Source: Gammaproteobacteria bacterium
Lineage (GTDB): Bacteria; Pseudomonadota; Gammaproteobacteria; UBA6429; Thiohalophilaceae
Direction of reading: 5' to 3'
Assembly (NCBI GenBank): GCA_024275915.1
Contig: JAJRYG010000104.1
Location: forward strand, 1-39,901
DNA: 39,901 nt
Part shown: in pieces, positions 3,455-38,724 of the stretch
Layout of the letters: the number at the start of each line of letters is the position of its first letter
How positions within the stretch are numbered: position 1 is the first letter of the stretch
Notes under the pieces: generated by a model
What the model was told of the DNA's origin: nothing
Database searches by the model: none
Seen by the model: the letters and a program-made list of their open reading frames with translations, nothing else
Program-made: the position numbers and the translations under genes

Positions 3455-3470
3455 GTCCTCCTCCCTTTGG

Positions 3471-3636
3471 CAGGCTGATGAAAAAGGCCTTCCGTGGACT
3501 TTTCAACACCGGAAACAAAAAATGCGATTTTTTGCTTCCTCATGTTTTCAATACCCTACTGCCATTGAAAACGGCGATGCATCCCTGTATCGCCAACAGG
3601 CTGCTGAAAAAGGCCCTTGTTCAATAACCTGTCAGG
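3471..3636. repeat. Dispersed palindromic repeat, family A, copy 2
   Basis: It starts with CAGGCTGATGAAAAAGG and contains a 9-bp stem, GTTTTCAAT (3544-3552) against ATTGAAAAC (3564-3572). Next comes GGCGAT...ATCGCC around the spacer GCATCCCTGT, and it closes with CAGGCTGCTGAAAAAGGCC (3597-3615). The last two parts recur at 6665-6810. The copy sits directly upstream of the flavoprotein ribosome site and fills most of the gap before prmA. Confidence 0.7.
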
Positions 3637-6664: not shown

Positions 6665-6810
6665 AAATGGCCTTGCCGGGAGGTTTTCAAGCCACGGGCG
6701 CAATCCCCGCATTTTCAATGACTTAGCAGCAATGAAAATGATAATGCTCCCTGTATCGCCAGCAGGCGGCTGAACACCCCCGTTTTTCGTGCCCACCTGT
6801 TAGACAATTT
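6665..6810. repeat. Dispersed palindromic repeat, family A, copy 3
   Basis: Directly behind the DUF3426 stop codon come CATTTTCA (6710-6717) and its partner TGAAAATG (6733-6740), then ATAATGCTCCCTGTATCGCC and CAGGCGGCTGAACA. The CTCCCTGTATCGCC segment matches copy 2 (ATCCCTGTATCGCC). The rest of the 275-base gap before dusB has no gene; AT-rich stretches around 6800-6880 may hold the dusB-fis promoter. Confidence 0.65.
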
Positions 6811-27609: not shown

Positions 27610-28650
27610 ATGGAATACCGCAAACTCGGCAACACCGACATCGACGTCAGCGTCATCTGCCTCGGCACCATGACTTGGGGTGAGCAGAACACCCAGGCCG
27701 AAGCCTTCGCCCAGATGGACTACGCTCTGGATCAGGGCGTCAACTTCTTCGACACTGCCGAGCTGTACTCCATTCCGCCAAAGGCAAAGACCTATGGCGC
27801 CACCGAAACCATCATTGGCCAGTGGCTGAAAAAGACTGGCAAACGCGAGCAGCTCATCCTTGCCAGCAAGATCGCCGGCCCCGGCGTCGGCTGGGTGGAT
27901 CACATTCGCGGCGGCAAGACCGTGTTCGACCACAACAACATCAGCGAAGCCCTCGACAACAGCCTCCAGCGCCTGGGCACCGACTACCTTGATCTCTACC
28001 AGCTGCACTGGCCCGAACGCCAGACCAACTTCTTCGGCCAGCTCGGCTACACCCCCAGCGACGATCACTTCACCCCCATCCGGGAAACCCTCGAAGCCCT
28101 GGCGCAACAGGTCAGGGCCGGCAAGATCCGCCACATCGGCCTGTCCAATGAAACCCCCTGGGGCACCATGGAATTCCTCAGACTGGCCAAACAGCACAAC
28201 CTGCCACGCATCGTCAGCGTGCAAAACCCCTACAGCCTGCTCAACCGCAGCTACGAAGTCGGCATGGCCGAAGTCTCCTGGCGTGAACATGCCGGATTGC
28301 TCGCCTATTCACCGCTGGGCTTTGGTGTCCTCTCCGGCAAATACCTCGGCGGAAACAAACCTGCCGGCGCCCGCATCACCCTCTACCCCGACTACACCCG
28401 CTACACCGGCCCCGGCGCCCAACAAGCCACGGAAAAATACGTCGCCCTTGCCCGCCAGCACGGCCTGGATCCGGCACAGATGGCGCTGGCCTATGTGAAC
28501 AGTCGGCAATTCCTCACCAGCACCATCATCGGCGCCACCACCATGGCGCAGCTCCAAGCCAACATCGCCAGCATCGACCTCGACCTCAGCGACGAAGTCC
28601 TCGAAGGCATCGAGGCAATCCATGAGGCACATCCAAATCCGAGTCCGTGA
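27610..28650 (+). CDS. tas: Tas-type aldo/keto reductase
   Basis: This 346-residue NADP(H)-dependent oxidoreductase resembles E. coli Tas along its whole length (LGNTDIDVSVICLGTMTWGE at the start, ATTMAQLQANIASIDLDLSD near the end, C-terminal PNPSP). The aldo/keto tetrad is visible as Asp and Tyr in FFDTAELY, Lys in ILASKIAG and His in YQLHWPERQTNFFGQLGY. Cofactor-site segments are IGLSNETPWG and VQNPYSLLNRS. Tas has no firmly known physiological substrate. The stop codon is followed with no gap by a DUF559 relic in the same frame. The gene itself looks complete. Confidence 0.9.
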   Translation: MEYRKLGNTDIDVSVICLGTMTWGEQNTQAEAFAQMDYALDQGVNFFDTAELYSIPPKAKTYGATETIIGQWLKKTGKREQLILASKIAGPGVGWVDHIRGGKTVFDHNNISEALDNSLQRLGTDYLDLYQLHWPERQTNFFGQLGYTPSDDHFTPIRETLEALAQQVRAGKIRHIGLSNETPWGTMEFLRLAKQHNLPRIVSVQNPYSLLNRSYEVGMAEVSWREHAGLLAYSPLGFGVLSGKYLGGNKPAGARITLYPDYTRYTGPGAQQATEKYVALARQHGLDPAQMALAYVNSRQFLTSTIIGATTMAQLQANIASIDLDLSDEVLEGIEAIHEAHPNPSP

Positions 28651-28887
28651 GGATTGATTATCGAAGCCGATGGCGGACAACAGGCTGAACAAATCGCCCA
28701 GAGTGCCAGACGAACAACCCGGTTGGAAGCAATGGGGTATCCGCTTGTGCGTTTCTGGAATCACGAAATACCAGGCGAACGTCACAGTGTGCTTGAACAA
28801 ATACCGTCTGCCCTGATTGCCCCCTCACCCCAGCCCTCTCCGGAGGGAGAGGGAGTTGGCACCGTGGCCACCCACAAATTCTTCTGA
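28651..28887 (+). pseudogene. C-terminal relic of a DUF559 nuclease-like gene
   Basis: Immediately after the tas stop, in the same frame, the sequence reads LIIEADGGQQAEQ, then EAMGYPLVRFWNHEI, then SVLEQIPSALIAPSPQPSPE. This is the C-terminal half of a DUF559 protein, a PD-(D/E)xK/Vsr-like fold. The N-terminal strands and a proper start are missing, so it is a fragment. The tail runs into the GC-rich repeat at 28804-28901, as DUF559 genes often do. A second relic lies at 32884-33079. No activity is expected. Confidence 0.75.
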
Positions 28888-28901
28888 AGAGCCAAATTTT
28901 T
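28804..28901. repeat. GC-rich palindromic repeat, family B, copy 1
   Basis: About 95 bases: TCTGCCCTGATTGCCCCCTC, then a palindrome CCCTCTCCGGAGGGAGAGGG, then GTTGGCACCGTGGCCACCCA, ending CTTCTGAAGAGCCAAATTTT. It matches copies at 29071-29166 and 33011-33104 almost throughout. Confidence 0.85.
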
Positions 28902-28925
28902 GCATGCAGGGGCTTTGGGGACAGT

Positions 28926-29013
28926 ATTTTCAGGGTCGAGCGCAGATTTTTCCAACCGCAGCATGGCCCACCGAAGTGTAAGGATTGGAAAAAACGAGCA
29001 CGGCGCTGAAAAT
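28926..29013. repeat. Imperfect inverted repeat between two family B copies
   Basis: The left arm TATTTTCAGGGTCGAGCGCA...TTTTTCCAA (28926-28955) and the right arm TTGGAAAAAACGAGCACGGC...GCTGAAAAT (28985-29013) pair imperfectly over about 29 bases around a 29-base centre. It is probably a small structured or mobile element. The segment 28888-29254 holds this, family B copy 2 and a promoter, with no gene. Confidence 0.5.
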
Positions 29014-29070
29014 GCTGGCATGGAAGGCGCTTCGCTATCCTGCTGCGAAAATTCATGCAACGATTGGGTA

Positions 29071-29166
29071 CAGTCTGCCCTGATTGCCCCCTCACCCCTG
29101 CCCTCTTCCGGAGGGAGAGGGAGTTGGCACGGTGGCCACCCATAAACTCTTATGAAGAGCCAAAAC
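29071..29166. repeat. GC-rich palindromic repeat, family B, copy 2
   Basis: CAGTCTGCCCTGATTGCCCC up to ATGAAGAGCCAAAA. It matches copy 1, including the CGGAGGGAGAGGG palindrome arm and GTGGCCACCCA, but has no DUF559 sequence in front. Instead GCGAAAATTCATGCAACG precedes it. Confidence 0.85.
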
Positions 29167-29182
29167 CATTTATGGCACACTA

Positions 29183-29212
29183 TTGACCCCAATGATGGGT
29201 CACCGGTATTAA
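29183..29212 (+). promoter_or_regulatory. Probable promoter of the NHL lipoprotein gene
   Basis: TTGACC (29183-29188) and TATTAA (29207-29212) are separated by 18 bases, close to the sigma-70 consensus, and lie 43 bases upstream of the start codon. Because it comes right after the repeat, the gene seems to have its own promoter. Confidence 0.55.
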
Positions 29213-29254
29213 TCTGTTAAAATACAGCAGTCGTGGTGCTATCCTATTGAAACC

Positions 29255-30379
29255 ATGAATACAGTAAAATTATTCAGTTTTCTCCTTTGCCTTTCTCTTC
29301 TTGCGGGATGTGCAACTCCCGAAAAACCCGTGGAACCAGTGCGTGCCATTTTCTGGCCTTCGTTGCCGGATCTGCCCCGTTTTGAATACGAATTTACCCT
29401 GCGTACCGACCTGAGCATTGCCGACAGGTCAAAAATGGACAGCTTCAAGGCCATGGCAACCGGGGTAACTGAAAAGCCAAGGGTAAGGATGATCAAACCT
29501 CTTGATATCGCCGCTTTCGAGGGACGTATCATCGTCAGTGACAGCGTCATGCGCCTGGTGTATCTCTTCGATGTCCCGCACCGCCTTACCGTTGCTTTTG
29601 GGCTCAGTGGTGACGGCCAATTGAAACAACCTCTGGGTGTTGCGGTTGATGGTGATGTGAATTTCTACGTTACCGATGCGGGAAGACACAGTATCGCCAT
29701 CTACGACTCGGGGGGACACTTCAAACGTCGCATTGCCAAACCTGGAGAACTCATCAAACCAACCGATGTTGCAGTGAGTCCGGATGGAAAACGAATCTAC
29801 GTGGTGGATGCTGGTGGTATAAATAGCCGGCAACATCGTGTCGTAGTCTACAACGCAGAAGGTGAACTTCTGTTTACCATAGGAGAGCGTGGAACCGCAC
29901 CCGGAAAATTCAATTTGCCAACCCATGCTGCAGTTGCTCCGGATGGTACGCTCTATGTCCTTGATACAGGCAACTTTCGTGTCCAGGCCTTTACTGCAGA
30001 TGGAGAATACATCACCAGCTGGGGAAAACTGGGTAGTGGTATCGGGCATTTCTCCAGACCACGCGGTATTGCGGTAGACAAGGATGGTAATGTTTATGTT
30101 TCTGATGCGAACTTTGGCAATGTGCAGATCTTCAATCCGCAAGGGCAGTTATTGATGGCGCTTGGCCGGGGGGGCACGGTGGACAAGATGGGCGTGTATT
30201 CGCTTATTGCCGGTGTTGCGGTTGACGAAACAGGCCGCATTTACGTGGTCGACCAGAGCTTTCAGAAGGTTGAAGTAATCAAACGTTTGACCGTAAAAGA
30301 GGGCGAAGCCATCATGCGGGAGTATGGCATCGAACCCGGGCATGAAGAGGCTGACGTGCCTGCCGACAGCAACAACTGA
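29255..30379 (+). CDS. NHL-repeat beta-propeller lipoprotein
   Basis: A lipoprotein signal with lipobox LLAGC (Cys19) opens this 374-residue protein, so it is anchored on the periplasmic or outer face of a membrane. From about residue 90 there are repeated NHL-type blades: PLGVAVDGDVNFYVTDAGRH, PTDVAVSPDGKRIYVVDAGG, PTHAAVAPDGTLYVLDTGNF, PRGIAVDKDGNVYVSDANFG and IAGVAVDETGRIYVVDQSFQ. Together they should form a six-bladed propeller. Such propellers bind partners or scaffold complexes; no catalytic residue can be named. It converges with a five-haem cytochrome gene, and NHL proteins often accompany multihaem cytochromes in electron-transfer loci. A shared role is inference from that. Confidence 0.88.
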   Translation: MNTVKLFSFLLCLSLLAGCATPEKPVEPVRAIFWPSLPDLPRFEYEFTLRTDLSIADRSKMDSFKAMATGVTEKPRVRMIKPLDIAAFEGRIIVSDSVMRLVYLFDVPHRLTVAFGLSGDGQLKQPLGVAVDGDVNFYVTDAGRHSIAIYDSGGHFKRRIAKPGELIKPTDVAVSPDGKRIYVVDAGGINSRQHRVVVYNAEGELLFTIGERGTAPGKFNLPTHAAVAPDGTLYVLDTGNFRVQAFTADGEYITSWGKLGSGIGHFSRPRGIAVDKDGNVYVSDANFGNVQIFNPQGQLLMALGRGGTVDKMGVYSLIAGVAVDETGRIYVVDQSFQKVEVIKRLTVKEGEAIMREYGIEPGHEEADVPADSNN

Positions 30380-30483
30380 TGTCTGCCGGGTGATTCAGGG
30401 GGCAGGCCTCTGCGGGGGGATGGTCTCGGTCGCAGGCTGAATTCCCTTTAGCCTTAGACCACAGCCGCATTTGTCTGCGGGTG

Positions 30484-31353
30484 TTACTTGTTATGACAGG
30501 TCAGGCAGAGTTCAGTCTGATCATTGACCCGCAGGAATGATTCGGTAAAGGCACCGCCACTGGTACCCACAATGGGTGTCCCGTGAGGGTTGTGGCAAGA
30601 AGCACATTCCACTTCAAAGCCTTCGCCCGAATCGTAGAAACGCAGTTCATTGTTGTCGGCACGACCATTACCATTTCTGTCGTAGAAACTGATCCCAAGG
30701 CCAACCCCATTGGGTGCATTGAAATCATATTTGGTCGTATCAGGTAACGCTACGCCGACAGGGTGATCATCGGTCAGATCCTTGCCGATGAGAAATACGG
30801 TGAAATCAGGTGCAAAAATATTGTCTGCAGAGTGGCAGAGAATACATTCGCCGAGGTTGGCGTGCAAGGTAGGTGAATTGTCCGGCCAGGTATCGAGAAA
30901 TGCGTCATTCTGTGCGGTTTCCTGTGACTTGTTGTAGGAATCCAGCCCGGGACGATTGGGCATGTTGATCACGGAGTCAATGGCGACCGTTCCATCGTGG
31001 CAGGACAGACAGACCAGCGAGTTTACACCGGGTGCGGTCGGTGTCTGACCCGAAGTGAGTGGTTTGTTGTAAAGGGTATAGGTTGTCGATCGGTTGGTTC
31101 GATTCCAGAGTGGAGCACCAATGGTGGTGTTGGCCCCGTGCGGAGTGTGACAGTAAACACAAACCTCGCCATAATCATTGCGGGCATTGTCCATGTTGAC
31201 CGACGCCCCACCCAGATAGCTCATGGTCATGTTGTGTCGTGTGTTGACAATACTGTCAATATTGGGAGCGGCAACGGCAATGTTTGATCCCGTGAGGAGC
31301 AAGATTACTGTCGAGAGATAATATCCGTAACGCGTCATACAACTGTAATTCAT
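30484..31353 (-). CDS. Five-haem periplasmic cytochrome c
   Basis: This 289-residue protein has an N-terminal signal peptide (YYLSTVILLLTGSNIAVAA) and five CXXCH haem-attachment motifs: CVYCH, CLSCH, CILCH, CASCH and CLTCH. Two are followed by the TPHG or NPHG signature (CHTPHG, CHNPHG) of the doubled-CXXCH multihaem family. It should be exported and carry electrons in the periplasm or on the cell surface. The redox partner is unknown. Two starts are possible: ATG 31353, with GAGGAA directly in front, and an internal MTRYGYY that gives a more standard signal peptide. It ends 105 bases from the stop of the convergent NHL lipoprotein gene. Confidence 0.9.
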   Translation of the reverse strand: MNYSCMTRYGYYLSTVILLLTGSNIAVAAPNIDSIVNTRHNMTMSYLGGASVNMDNARNDYGEVCVYCHTPHGANTTIGAPLWNRTNRSTTYTLYNKPLTSGQTPTAPGVNSLVCLSCHDGTVAIDSVINMPNRPGLDSYNKSQETAQNDAFLDTWPDNSPTLHANLGECILCHSADNIFAPDFTVFLIGKDLTDDHPVGVALPDTTKYDFNAPNGVGLGISFYDRNGNGRADNNELRFYDSGEGFEVECASCHNPHGTPIVGTSGGAFTESFLRVNDQTELCLTCHNK

Positions 31354-32031
31354 TTCCTCAAACCCCAGACATACTCACAGTTTAATTTCTCAAGGTACTT
31401 CAAGTCTTTTATCTTCCACTTTTTTTAAGCATTATATATGCCATAAATATAAGTCGTTGTTTTTATAGAAGTACGCAACCAAGTTTTTCGAATTAATGAG
31501 AAATTTATCAACAACACCCTCTCACTATCGAGAATTTCTTTTTTTCTTCATGAACGGATTAGCCTGTTCGCCAGCATCTGAAATCAGCACAAGGACATGC
31601 CGCACAGGCGCAATGGCAGGACAATCATCGCCATGTATCCATCCTCCCGGTTCCTGGCTTCGAGGAAATGGTGTAGCAAAACACTCGACAAATTCCATCG
31701 GCCAGCGGATAGAACTATTATAGCCTCTCATCATCAAGGTCACTACTCTGGAAAGGCCGGCAAAAGTGAATTAACGCCCCCGTACATCATTAATTAGTAT
31801 TAAAAACGCCATATAACAGTTGCACATTGACTCACTCAGCGGCCAAATCTGTTTTTTTGGCCCCGTTCTCTGTCCGCGTGATCGCATCTCGCAAATGGTA
31901 CTTGCCTCACAGCAGCGACATCACAGCCCCTCTCCGCACCGTCTTCACAAGCAAACCCGGGCTGTCTGACAGGCTTGCAGGCACCGGCCAGTTTCGACTA
32001 CCTGCTCATCAGTTACAATGGGATCCACGAC
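31354..32031. other. Gene-free, AT-rich intergenic stretch
   Basis: These 678 bases are clearly AT-richer than the neighbours, mainly at 31380-31560. Short frames exist on both strands around 31496-31797, but none has a ribosome site, a signal peptide or a recognisable domain. It probably holds the promoters of the divergent cytochrome and MerB-like genes. Confidence 0.45.
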
Positions 32032-32751
32032 ATGAACATCAAACTCGAAAAGGCCCTGAGCCGCCTGGAACACATTCTGCCGCTGAAGAAAAGGCAGGGT
32101 GAATGTTGTGACGAGATTCACATTCTTCATCAACAGATCCTCCATTCGTTCGTAGCCAGTGGACACATTCTGTCCCGTGATGAAATGGCTTCCTGTGTTG
32201 ATGACCTCGAAGCAGCAATACAGGTGTTGCAAAGCAGGGACCTGGTCATTTTTTCTGCCGCTGGAGAACCCCTTGGCGCCTACCCCTTTACCATGGAACC
32301 CCGTCCGCACAAGATTCTGATCAATGGCCATCAGATCCATGCCATGTGTGCACTTGACAGCCTGGCAGCAAGCCCCATGTTTGGCCTGAAAGCGCGTATC
32401 GACTCACAGTGCCGTGTGACTGGTGACACCATCTGCATACAGCAATCCGATCAGCGAATCGAAAACCGGGAGGAAGCTGACGACATCCATGTCGGTATTG
32501 ACTGGGGATCGGCCAGGCATGACGATCACTGTGCAAACAACCTGTGCATGGACATGATCTTCCTGCGCAACCACGCCATTTGCCGACAATGGCTCATCGA
32601 GAGACCACAGAACAGGGAAGTCTTCACTCTTCGGGAAGCGATTGAATTTGCCAGTCGTTTTTTTGTACCACTGGTAAAGACCACGGATTTACCTTCCCGA
32701 TCGTCTTCCGCTACAGTGGGGATTAATTGCATTCACCTGCCGGGACGCTGA
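32032..32751 (+). CDS. MerB-like (alkylmercury lyase family) protein
   Basis: From ATG 32032 this is 239 residues. The N-terminal half is helical, with a winged-helix-like segment (ILHSFVASGHILSRDEMASC, then VDDLEAAIQVLQSRDLVI). The C-terminal half matches the MerB core. HQIHAMCALDSL aligns with the MerB segment carrying catalytic Cys96 and Asp99, giving Cys106 and Asp109 here. ARIDSQCRVTGDTICI follows, and HCANNLCMDMIFL supplies the counterpart of Cys159 (Cys172). MerB cleaves carbon-mercury bonds, and the three catalytic residues are retained. No merR, merA or merT lies nearby, so a role in mercury resistance is unproven. Relatives outside mer operons may handle other substrates. An upstream TTG (31975) is possible, but the ATG is preferred. 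Confidence 0.75.
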   Translation: MNIKLEKALSRLEHILPLKKRQGECCDEIHILHQQILHSFVASGHILSRDEMASCVDDLEAAIQVLQSRDLVIFSAAGEPLGAYPFTMEPRPHKILINGHQIHAMCALDSLAASPMFGLKARIDSQCRVTGDTICIQQSDQRIENREEADDIHVGIDWGSARHDDHCANNLCMDMIFLRNHAICRQWLIERPQNREVFTLREAIEFASRFFVPLVKTTDLPSRSSSATVGINCIHLPGR

Positions 32752-32883
32752 CCGTTTCCTTGTTGCAGGAGACTAAATAGCTGTTCCAAATGCCAGGTCA
32801 CTTTATGGCAAGTGATTGTTCATAAGCACCGCCCCAAGCGCAGAAGAATTTGGCATGACCACGCCATAAATACATCCATGTAA

Positions 32884-33079
32884 GCTCGACAGCCAATGGG
32901 CTTCATGTTTCGACGCCAGGGGCGTCATTGAGCCATGTATTGTTGATTTTGTTTGCACGGATGCCAAATTGATTATCGAAAGCGATGGCGGACAATAGGC
33001 TGAACAAATACAGTCTGCCCTGATTGCCCCCCCAGCCCTCACCCGGAGGGAGAGGGCGTTGGCACGTTGGCCACCCACA
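32884..33079 (+). pseudogene. Second DUF559 relic, frameshifted and internally deleted
   Basis: One frame gives ARQPMGFMFRRQ, the usual start of the DUF559 core (typically GFKFRRQ). The next frame continues CIVDFVCTDAKLIIESDGGQ, then a TAG stop and AEQIQSALIA. So there is a frameshift, a stop, and loss of the segment between AEQ and IPSALIA that relic 1 retains. It joins family B copy 3 at the same point as relic 1. The gap 32752-33211 otherwise contains no gene. Confidence 0.7.
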
Positions 33080-33104
33080 AATTCTTCTGAAGAGCCAGAT
33101 TTTT
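33011..33104. repeat. GC-rich palindromic repeat, family B, copy 3
   Basis: CAGTCTGCCCTGATTGCCCC, CCGGAGGGAGAGGGCGTTGG, then GTTGGCCACCCACAAATTCT and GAAGAGCCAGATTTTT. It matches copies 1 and 2 apart from a short deletion left of the palindrome. Confidence 0.85.
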
Positions 33105-38629: not shown

Positions 38630-38680
38630 TTGTATAAACTTTTGGATGTGCACCGATAATTAATGCAACGATTGGGCTAA

Positions 38681-38724
38681 CAGGCTGTTGAAAAAGCCCT
38701 TCCCTGGCCTTTTTCAACAGCCTG
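38681..38724. repeat. Dispersed palindromic repeat, family A, copy 4
   Basis: CAGGCTGTTGAAAAAG (38681-38696) and CTTTTTCAACAGCCTG (38709-38724) form a perfect 16-bp inverted repeat around 12 bases. It lies 51 bases after the pump stop and may also act as a transcription stop. The segments TGCAACGATTGGG (38664-38676) and CCCAATCATTGCA (38819-38831) lie to either side of it as an inverted pair. The gap 38630-39060 has no gene. Confidence 0.8.

Follow-up and report, generated by a model that had tools for sequence, protein, structure and literature searches.

The stretch analyzed here (the window) is the 39,901-nucleotide contig JAJRYG010000104.1, or contig C93, of a gammaproteobacterium of the family Thiohalophilaceae (GCA_024275915.1), whose 2.34-Mb assembly is fragmented into 112 contigs and 77% complete. 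Downstream of an aldo/keto reductase gene (27610–28650), the window harbors two relics of a DUF559 gene (Pfam PF04480), each running into a GC-rich hairpin repeat, hereafter R, and a terminal inverted repeat (TIR). Both are decayed copies of a ~610-bp element in which the gene lies between two inverted copies of R, an arrangement that recurs around DUF559 genes across bacteria. The features of the locus are listed below, with element positions counted on a full-length copy in the same genome (L002:1133–1744).

28653–28895, forward strand: relic 1, with the 3′ half of the DUF559 gene, the downstream hairpin, and the right end (element 367–613, 92% to L002)
28686–28694, forward strand: 9-bp direct repeat TGAACAAAT, copy 1 (element position 400)
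28794–28802, forward strand: 9-bp direct repeat, copy 2 (element position 508)
28820–28853, forward strand: downstream hairpin R of relic 1, with gene-facing tail CCCCTCACCCC and hairpin CCCTCTCCGGAGGGAGAGGG (from the sequence, with copies aligned)
28868–28894, reverse strand: right TIR of relic 1 (consensus right end matching the left end at 23/27)
28899–29068, forward strand: a separate ~170-bp repeat, “C”, adjoining relic 1 (86–94% matches at seven loci)
29069–29163, forward strand: third copy, geneless and right end only, with hairpin and right TIR (element 516–613, 87% to L002)
32884–33009, forward strand: gene part of relic 2 (element 284–408, 91% to L002; PF04480 with one TAG)
33001–33009, forward strand: the sole TGAACAAAT remaining in relic 2 after the 108-bp deletion (9-bp overlap, element 408 to 508)
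33001–33097, forward strand: right end of relic 2, with hairpin R at 33027–33056 and right TIR at 33071–33097 (86% to L002 element 505–612)

The PF04480 matches exceed the 20.6-bit cut-off in relic 1 (28654–28812, 1.1e-11, 45.5 bits) and in relic 2 (32912–33013, 8.3e-6, 26.6 bits), the latter with one stop (TAG). Both relics have lost their left end, i.e., element positions 1–366 in relic 1, which breaks off immediately after the aldo/keto reductase stop codon, and 1–283 in relic 2. The 9-mer TGAACAAAT occurs in the whole window only at 28686, 28794, and 33001, twice in relic 1 and once in relic 2 as an earlier note on this DNA had recorded, while TCTGCCCTGATTGCC is found at 28807, 29074, and 33014. 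When the relics are aligned, both sides match and relic 2 shows one clean gap between the 9-mer positions. The full-length copy carries the 9-mers at element positions 400 and 508, and in relic 2 position 408 is fused to 508, the two parts overlapping by 9 bp; the proposed deletion between the two 9-mers is thus borne out at 108 bp. The same note had both relics joined to “family B” DNA. The shared junction holds, and both relics do carry the repeat, but the latter is the right end of one element rather than a separate piece, and the third, geneless copy at 29069–29163 had been overlooked.

The relic-1 sequence has 43 matches in the genome of the window. An all-against-all comparison of the copies gives sharp common ends and full-length copies of 570–612 bp, together with geneless copies of 196–411 bp that are internally deleted and keep both ends. 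The ends are 27-bp TIRs, TGCCTCGTTAGAAAAATTTGTGGGTGG and TGGCTCTTCAGAAGAATTTGTGGGTGG, which match at 23 of 27 positions (consensus of 11 copies). They are bordered by a 6-bp AT-rich target duplication, with 80% identity in the same 11 copies vs 47% in shuffled pairings; 6 bp is the sole length for which none of 3000 shuffles reached the observed value, other lengths giving a weak excess or none. Inside the TIRs, the DUF559 gene has a hairpin on its left, CCCTCTCCCCCGGGAGAGGGGGTGAGGG, and one of inverse order on its right, CCCCTCACCCCAGCCCTCTCCCGGAGGGAGAGGG. In one copy (L021) the gene was lost through a deletion from the CCCTCTCCC arm of one hairpin to that of the other (element positions 171 and 551), an event of the same kind as the deletion in relic 2.

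About a dozen DUF559 loci are present in this genome, and most are interrupted by stops or truncated. One gene, on contig C101 (L031:1468–1830), is intact and near full length (PF04480, 139.4 bits against the cut-off of 20.6). No intact parent of the relic subfamily turned up in this incomplete, fragmented assembly. The idea that a nuclease gene and a GC-rich palindrome move as one cassette that then decays is upheld by the ~610-bp element; what the earlier note missed in the layout is that the gene has the repeat on either side and that the spreading unit of this genome is enclosed by an outer TIR. Among 24 other genomes searched, of which one belongs to the same genus and 14 to the same family, none yielded the left end, and no transposase partner for the TIRs was identified in the genome of the window, itself 77% complete and the only one with the left end. 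Taken together, the sharp ends, the TIRs, the 6-bp duplications, and the confinement of the left end to one genome identify the relics as decayed copies of a species-specific, transposon-like TIR element with 6-bp AT-rich target duplications. The copies in the window were probably multiplied by this TIR carrier and then decayed. Multiplication would have proceeded through the TIRs by a transposase acting in trans, and decay through stop codons and deletions between short direct repeats, the 108 bp of relic 2 being one such deletion.

Repeat C, which ends in AAAATTCATGCAACGATTGGG, has copies beside, around, or inside seven loci of the element (L005, L011, L015, L016, L019, L020, and L021), so that this genome has small repeats nested within one another. 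Another palindromic family, CAGGCTGTTGAAAAAG...CTTTTTCAACAGCCTG, occurs in the window at 2742–2782, 3456–3496, 3582–3622, 6748–6788, and 38666–38706, and DUF559 elements at other places in the genome (L003, L004, and L011) are interrupted by similar sequence.

Beyond this genome, DUF559 genes form R>gene<R cassettes with lineage-specific hairpin repeats. A profile scan of contigs yielded 80 named DUF559 loci in gamma-, beta-, and alphaproteobacteria, Deltaproteobacteria, Desulfobulbaceae, and Nitrospira, most of them closely bracketed by hairpins of one architecture. The earlier note had proposed looking for the repeat behind full-length DUF559 genes of relatives; a corresponding hairpin mostly does follow there, and an inverted copy precedes. 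For 147 DUF559 loci from Pseudomonadota, Nitrospira, and Desulfobacterota (69 phylum-drawn and 78 close), the bracketing was quantified by local alignment of the 220 bp upstream of a gene with the 220 bp downstream, scored for an inverted repeat. An inverted flank pair is present at 97 of these 147 genes (66%) vs two of 200 other genes on the same contigs (1%; p=2e-45), with 47/69 among the phylum-drawn and 50/78 among the close genes. Distal-window pairs, used as a control, pass in 0/200 and 1/180 cases. Flanks taken from different DUF559 genes pass at only 9% and 23%, which shows that the match is specific to the pair around one gene. Of the 69 genes with hairpins of readable direction on both sides, 63 have the hairpin outside and the G-rich tail turned toward the gene at either end, and six have other orientations. 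The closing codons of many relatives’ DUF559 genes fall within the hairpin repeat, which accounts for protein tails such as PSPQPSP. A search for Rfam families at six loci gave no match.

Variants of the layout occur. In a relative of the same genus, the DUF559 gene lies within a tandem array whose ~197-bp units carry one hairpin each (L051 in G001:C132). In rhizobia, DUF559 occupies a single conserved position upstream of a hydantoinase/dihydropyrimidinase-like gene and has a hairpin, which is RIME-like, on its upstream side only (L147, L148, L155, and L157).

Hairpin abundance goes with DUF559, as an association that does not imply dependence. Hairpins were counted with the pattern CTCCCN{2,10}GGGAGRRG, which covers only CTCCC/GGGAG stems, and with the same pattern read backwards as a control. 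Among 150 Pseudomonadota genomes, a Pfam search detected DUF559 in 36 including the genome of the window; 35 positive and 114 negative genomes were counted. The median is 19.6 hairpins per Mb in positive vs 1.0 in negative genomes (backward control, 1.0 and 0.5), and hairpin-rich genomes make up 28/35 of those with DUF559 vs 9/114 of those without (odds ratio 47, p=3e-16). The association persists at the family level (p=3e-6), and most families that hold both kinds of genome show the same contrast. In one genus of 81 species, the median is 308 hairpins (both strands) in the 14 DUF559 species vs two in the 67 others, and all ten species with at least 75 hairpins carry DUF559. Another member of this genus (G226) has 64 hairpins and no DUF559 match at E≤1e-8, which makes it a candidate for recent gene loss. 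The REP-associated tyrosine transposase (RAYT; REP, repetitive extragenic palindrome) was rejected as the driver of these repeats, its odds ratio with hairpin-richness being 0.9. Among genomes free of RAYT, 17/21 with DUF559 are hairpin-rich vs 2/53 without, and the genome of the window has no RAYT match.

Hairpin type also co-diverges with the protein. When hairpins are sorted by their stems (CTCTCCC, CTTCTCCC, CCCTCCC, CCTCCCC, and others), the DUF559 tree requires 20 type changes vs 45 after shuffling (shuffle minimum 40; n=119), and the phylum draw alone 14 vs 31. In seven genomes with several types, paralogues of the same type are closer to each other than those of different types (within-genome shuffle, P=0.0002). 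The genome G062 has eight paralogues of types A, A, C, C, C, D, D, and D, and at all eight the upstream type equals the downstream type. Its sampled geneless hairpins are of the same types, and the five geneless pairs with two readable tails all stand tail to tail, 77–123 bp apart, as around the gene. Hairpin pairs of opposite order occur in G095, and the stretches sampled from G127 contain too few hairpins for dimers.

The comparison of filled and empty sites, likewise proposed in the earlier note, could be made at the operon spacer between acnD and prpF. In G127 this 750-bp spacer comprises hairpins, the DUF559 gene, and hairpins again. The spacers read in relatives measure 62–128 bp or hold other genes (e.g., a ParD/ParE-like pair), and a hairpin of the R kind is absent from the plain spacers as well as from three longer ones checked. 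Since these spacers lack the hairpin, repeat and gene came to this site together. Landing of DUF559 in a pre-existing repeat, the alternative considered there, was not seen, as the empty spacers hold no hairpin. The acnD-prpF cassette is also found in Acidovorax and, with an upstream hairpin, in Chromobacterium (L116, L125, L136, L145, and L162, with G127), and its occupation in several lineages suggests either that cassettes reached this site more than once or that the operon was exchanged. R hairpins also lie in the ribD-ribE spacer (L053).

The DUF559 protein is a small predicted endonuclease with an EDxHD/Vsr-type fold. An alignment of 40 proteins keeps E25, R44, Q45, D54, E65, D67, G68, D78, R81, and R94; E65, D67, and D78 are invariant and H71 is nearly so, giving a conserved acidic/His motif of the EDxHD type. 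The structure model is confident (pLDDT 89.5), and its fold matches Neisseria gonorrhoeae NGO0050 (3hrl), Vsr (1vsr, 1cw0), and the catalytic domain of I-Bth0305I (3r3p; 3.1e-5 by fold and 6.5e-5 by sequence profile). The best Pfam match of the repeat-flanked gene is DUF559, not a Y1/HUH tyrosine transposase. EDxHD enzymes are a family of homing endonucleases (PMC3943268), to which a gene with DUF559, reported alongside cyanobacterial inteins, has been assigned (PMC9403480). A further DUF559 protein, Caulobacter VsrA, causes DNA damage in the absence of its partner methylase (PMC12907096).

The bracketing of the gene by inverted hairpins that are abundant mainly in genomes with DUF559 suggests that gene and repeat are partners. 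On balance, the reading to be preferred is that DUF559 is the cognate nuclease of a REP-like superfamily of repeats, parallel to RAYT/REP and based on an unrelated enzyme, with the relics of the window as decayed copies of a TIR element. DUF559 would then be to its hairpin repeats what RAYT is to REPs and REPINs. The protein would recognize its own type of R and cut or nick DNA, and repair of the break or nick would copy the R-gene-R cassette, or geneless R pairs, to new sites. The cassette layout, the specific matching of the flanks, the link with hairpin abundance, the co-divergence, the nuclease fold, and the R-free empty sites are established by the comparisons, from which DNA cutting by the protein, its recognition of R, and the copying step are inferred. 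The stronger proposal that DUF559 constitutes a second independent class of repeat-spreading enzymes, which recognize their own hairpin, raise it to hundreds of copies per genome, and copy it in a homing-like manner, is more tentative and falls slightly short of an even chance.

Several observations weigh against a partnership of this kind. In the genome of the window, copying may have been the work of the TIRs instead of the nuclease. Part of the family does something else, given that an inverted pair is not clear at about a third of the DUF559 genes and that R is not in excess in seven of the 35 positive genomes. Of the 114 genomes in which no DUF559 was detected, nine are hairpin-rich. In the acnD tree of the genus of G127, the hairpin-rich species with DUF559 partly form one clade, and a test on independent pairs there has only four to five pairs and thus no power. 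Caulobacter VsrA is tied to mismatch-type repair and DNA damage, not to repeats (PMC12907096). Finally, neither cutting nor movement of R was observed.

Other explanations account for parts of these data. For the window only, the DUF559 part might be mere cargo of a TIR-bounded miniature inverted-repeat transposable element (MITE), with hairpins that play no role in its spread. The TIRs and 6-bp duplications that define the mobile unit, the geneless copies that retain both ends, and the restriction of the left end to this species among the genomes searched make this an evenly balanced proposition; it leaves unexplained the R-gene-R layout elsewhere, where no shared outer TIR was seen, and it is compatible with a partnership of nuclease and repeat at the general level. 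It is also conceivable that R is spread by something else and that DUF559 is a homing-type parasite that uses R as landing sites. The match of the fold to a homing endonuclease would fit, as would the nine R-rich genomes without DUF559 and the geneless single or dimer copies of R. Such genomes are exceptional at both the phylum and the genus scale, however; the orthologous empty acnD-prpF sites lack R, so that no landing in a pre-existing R took place there; and no other enzyme was found to track R, which RAYT does not. This explanation is unlikely.

Still less probable is that the hairpins are RNA or DNA regulatory parts of a mobile gene (terminators or mRNA-stabilizing hairpins) that multiplied because they were useful to the host. 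Their GC-rich character and their place in the acnD-prpF and ribD-ribE operon spacers fit a regulatory role, but the six loci searched lack an Rfam match, the flanks read show no T-run behind the hairpins, and neither the fixed inverted layout with gene-facing tails on both sides nor the co-divergence with the protein is expected of terminators. An equally poor prospect is a Vsr-like host enzyme of mismatch or short-patch repair beside which the hairpins are incidental. The similarity of the fold to Vsr and the phenotype of Caulobacter VsrA (PMC12907096) speak for it; against it, flank pairs occur at 66% of DUF559 genes vs 1% of control genes, and the DUF559 genes are multi-copy, decaying, and patchily distributed. 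The flank and abundance tests have already weakened this explanation.

To our knowledge, dispersed palindromic repeats occur in many bacterial genomes, and a well-supported candidate enzyme exists only for those tied to RAYT. For CGTC repeats, no dedicated enzyme is known (PMC3733652). In the open PMC literature, with subscription literature outside the search, no paper connects DUF559 with palindromic repeats. With a gene that is bracketed by repeats, co-diverges with them, and marks the genomes that hold them, the question of where a large repeat class comes from becomes directly testable. A working hypothesis also results for PF04480, a widespread domain whose function is still unknown according to Pfam. 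If the stronger proposal of a second class of repeat-spreading enzymes is correct, a cognate enzyme would be at hand for much of the C/G-rich palindromic repeat content of Proteobacteria, the rhizobial RIME elements possibly among it. The rhizobial hairpin CTTCTCCCC..GGGGAGAAG, which accompanies DUF559 at L147, L148, L155, and L157 with a second hairpin GGCCC..GGGCC, appears to resemble RIME. RIMEs are rhizobial repeats of unknown function (PMC2573895), and no paper in the open PMC literature links them to DUF559.

Among known systems, the element of the window resembles bacterial MITEs (e.g., NEMIS and ERIC) in its TIRs, short target duplications, many internally deleted copies, and species specificity, but differs in that the full-length form carries a nuclease gene inside two further inverted hairpins. 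With EDxHD homing endonucleases such as I-Bth0305I, DUF559 proteins share the catalytic domain by profile and fold. Unlike these, many are short (about 105–130 aa), and no intron, intein, or split gene was seen around them, their site being an intergenic spacer between palindromic repeats. Vsr and the Vsr-like VsrA (PMC12907096) have the fold and the Pfam domain DUF559 in common with them, whereas the genes described here are flanked by repeats, present in multiple copies, and often decayed; a linked cytosine methylase was neither sought nor noticed beside DUF559.

The closest parallel is RAYT/REP/REPIN. Both systems place one gene between two inverted palindromic repeats (PMC2817692, PMC3116915, PMC3733652), both have the same repeat in many dispersed copies, with the geneless tail-to-tail pairs of G062 as a candidate counterpart of REPIN doublets, and in both the repeat type co-diverges with the protein, with several types per genome. 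The differences lie in the enzyme, which is of the EDxHD/Vsr type rather than an IS200/IS605-type tyrosine transposase, in the genome-level abundance of the hairpins, which does not track RAYT, and in the repeats, which lack the GT(A/G)G head (PMC2817692). By eye, the DUF559 hairpins open with arms of C/T and close with tails that resemble GGGTGAGGGG or GGGGAGAGGGG. By analogy, the DUF559/hairpin system would thus work like RAYT/REP but, because the enzyme and the GT(A/G)G head differ, would stand beside it rather than be a member.

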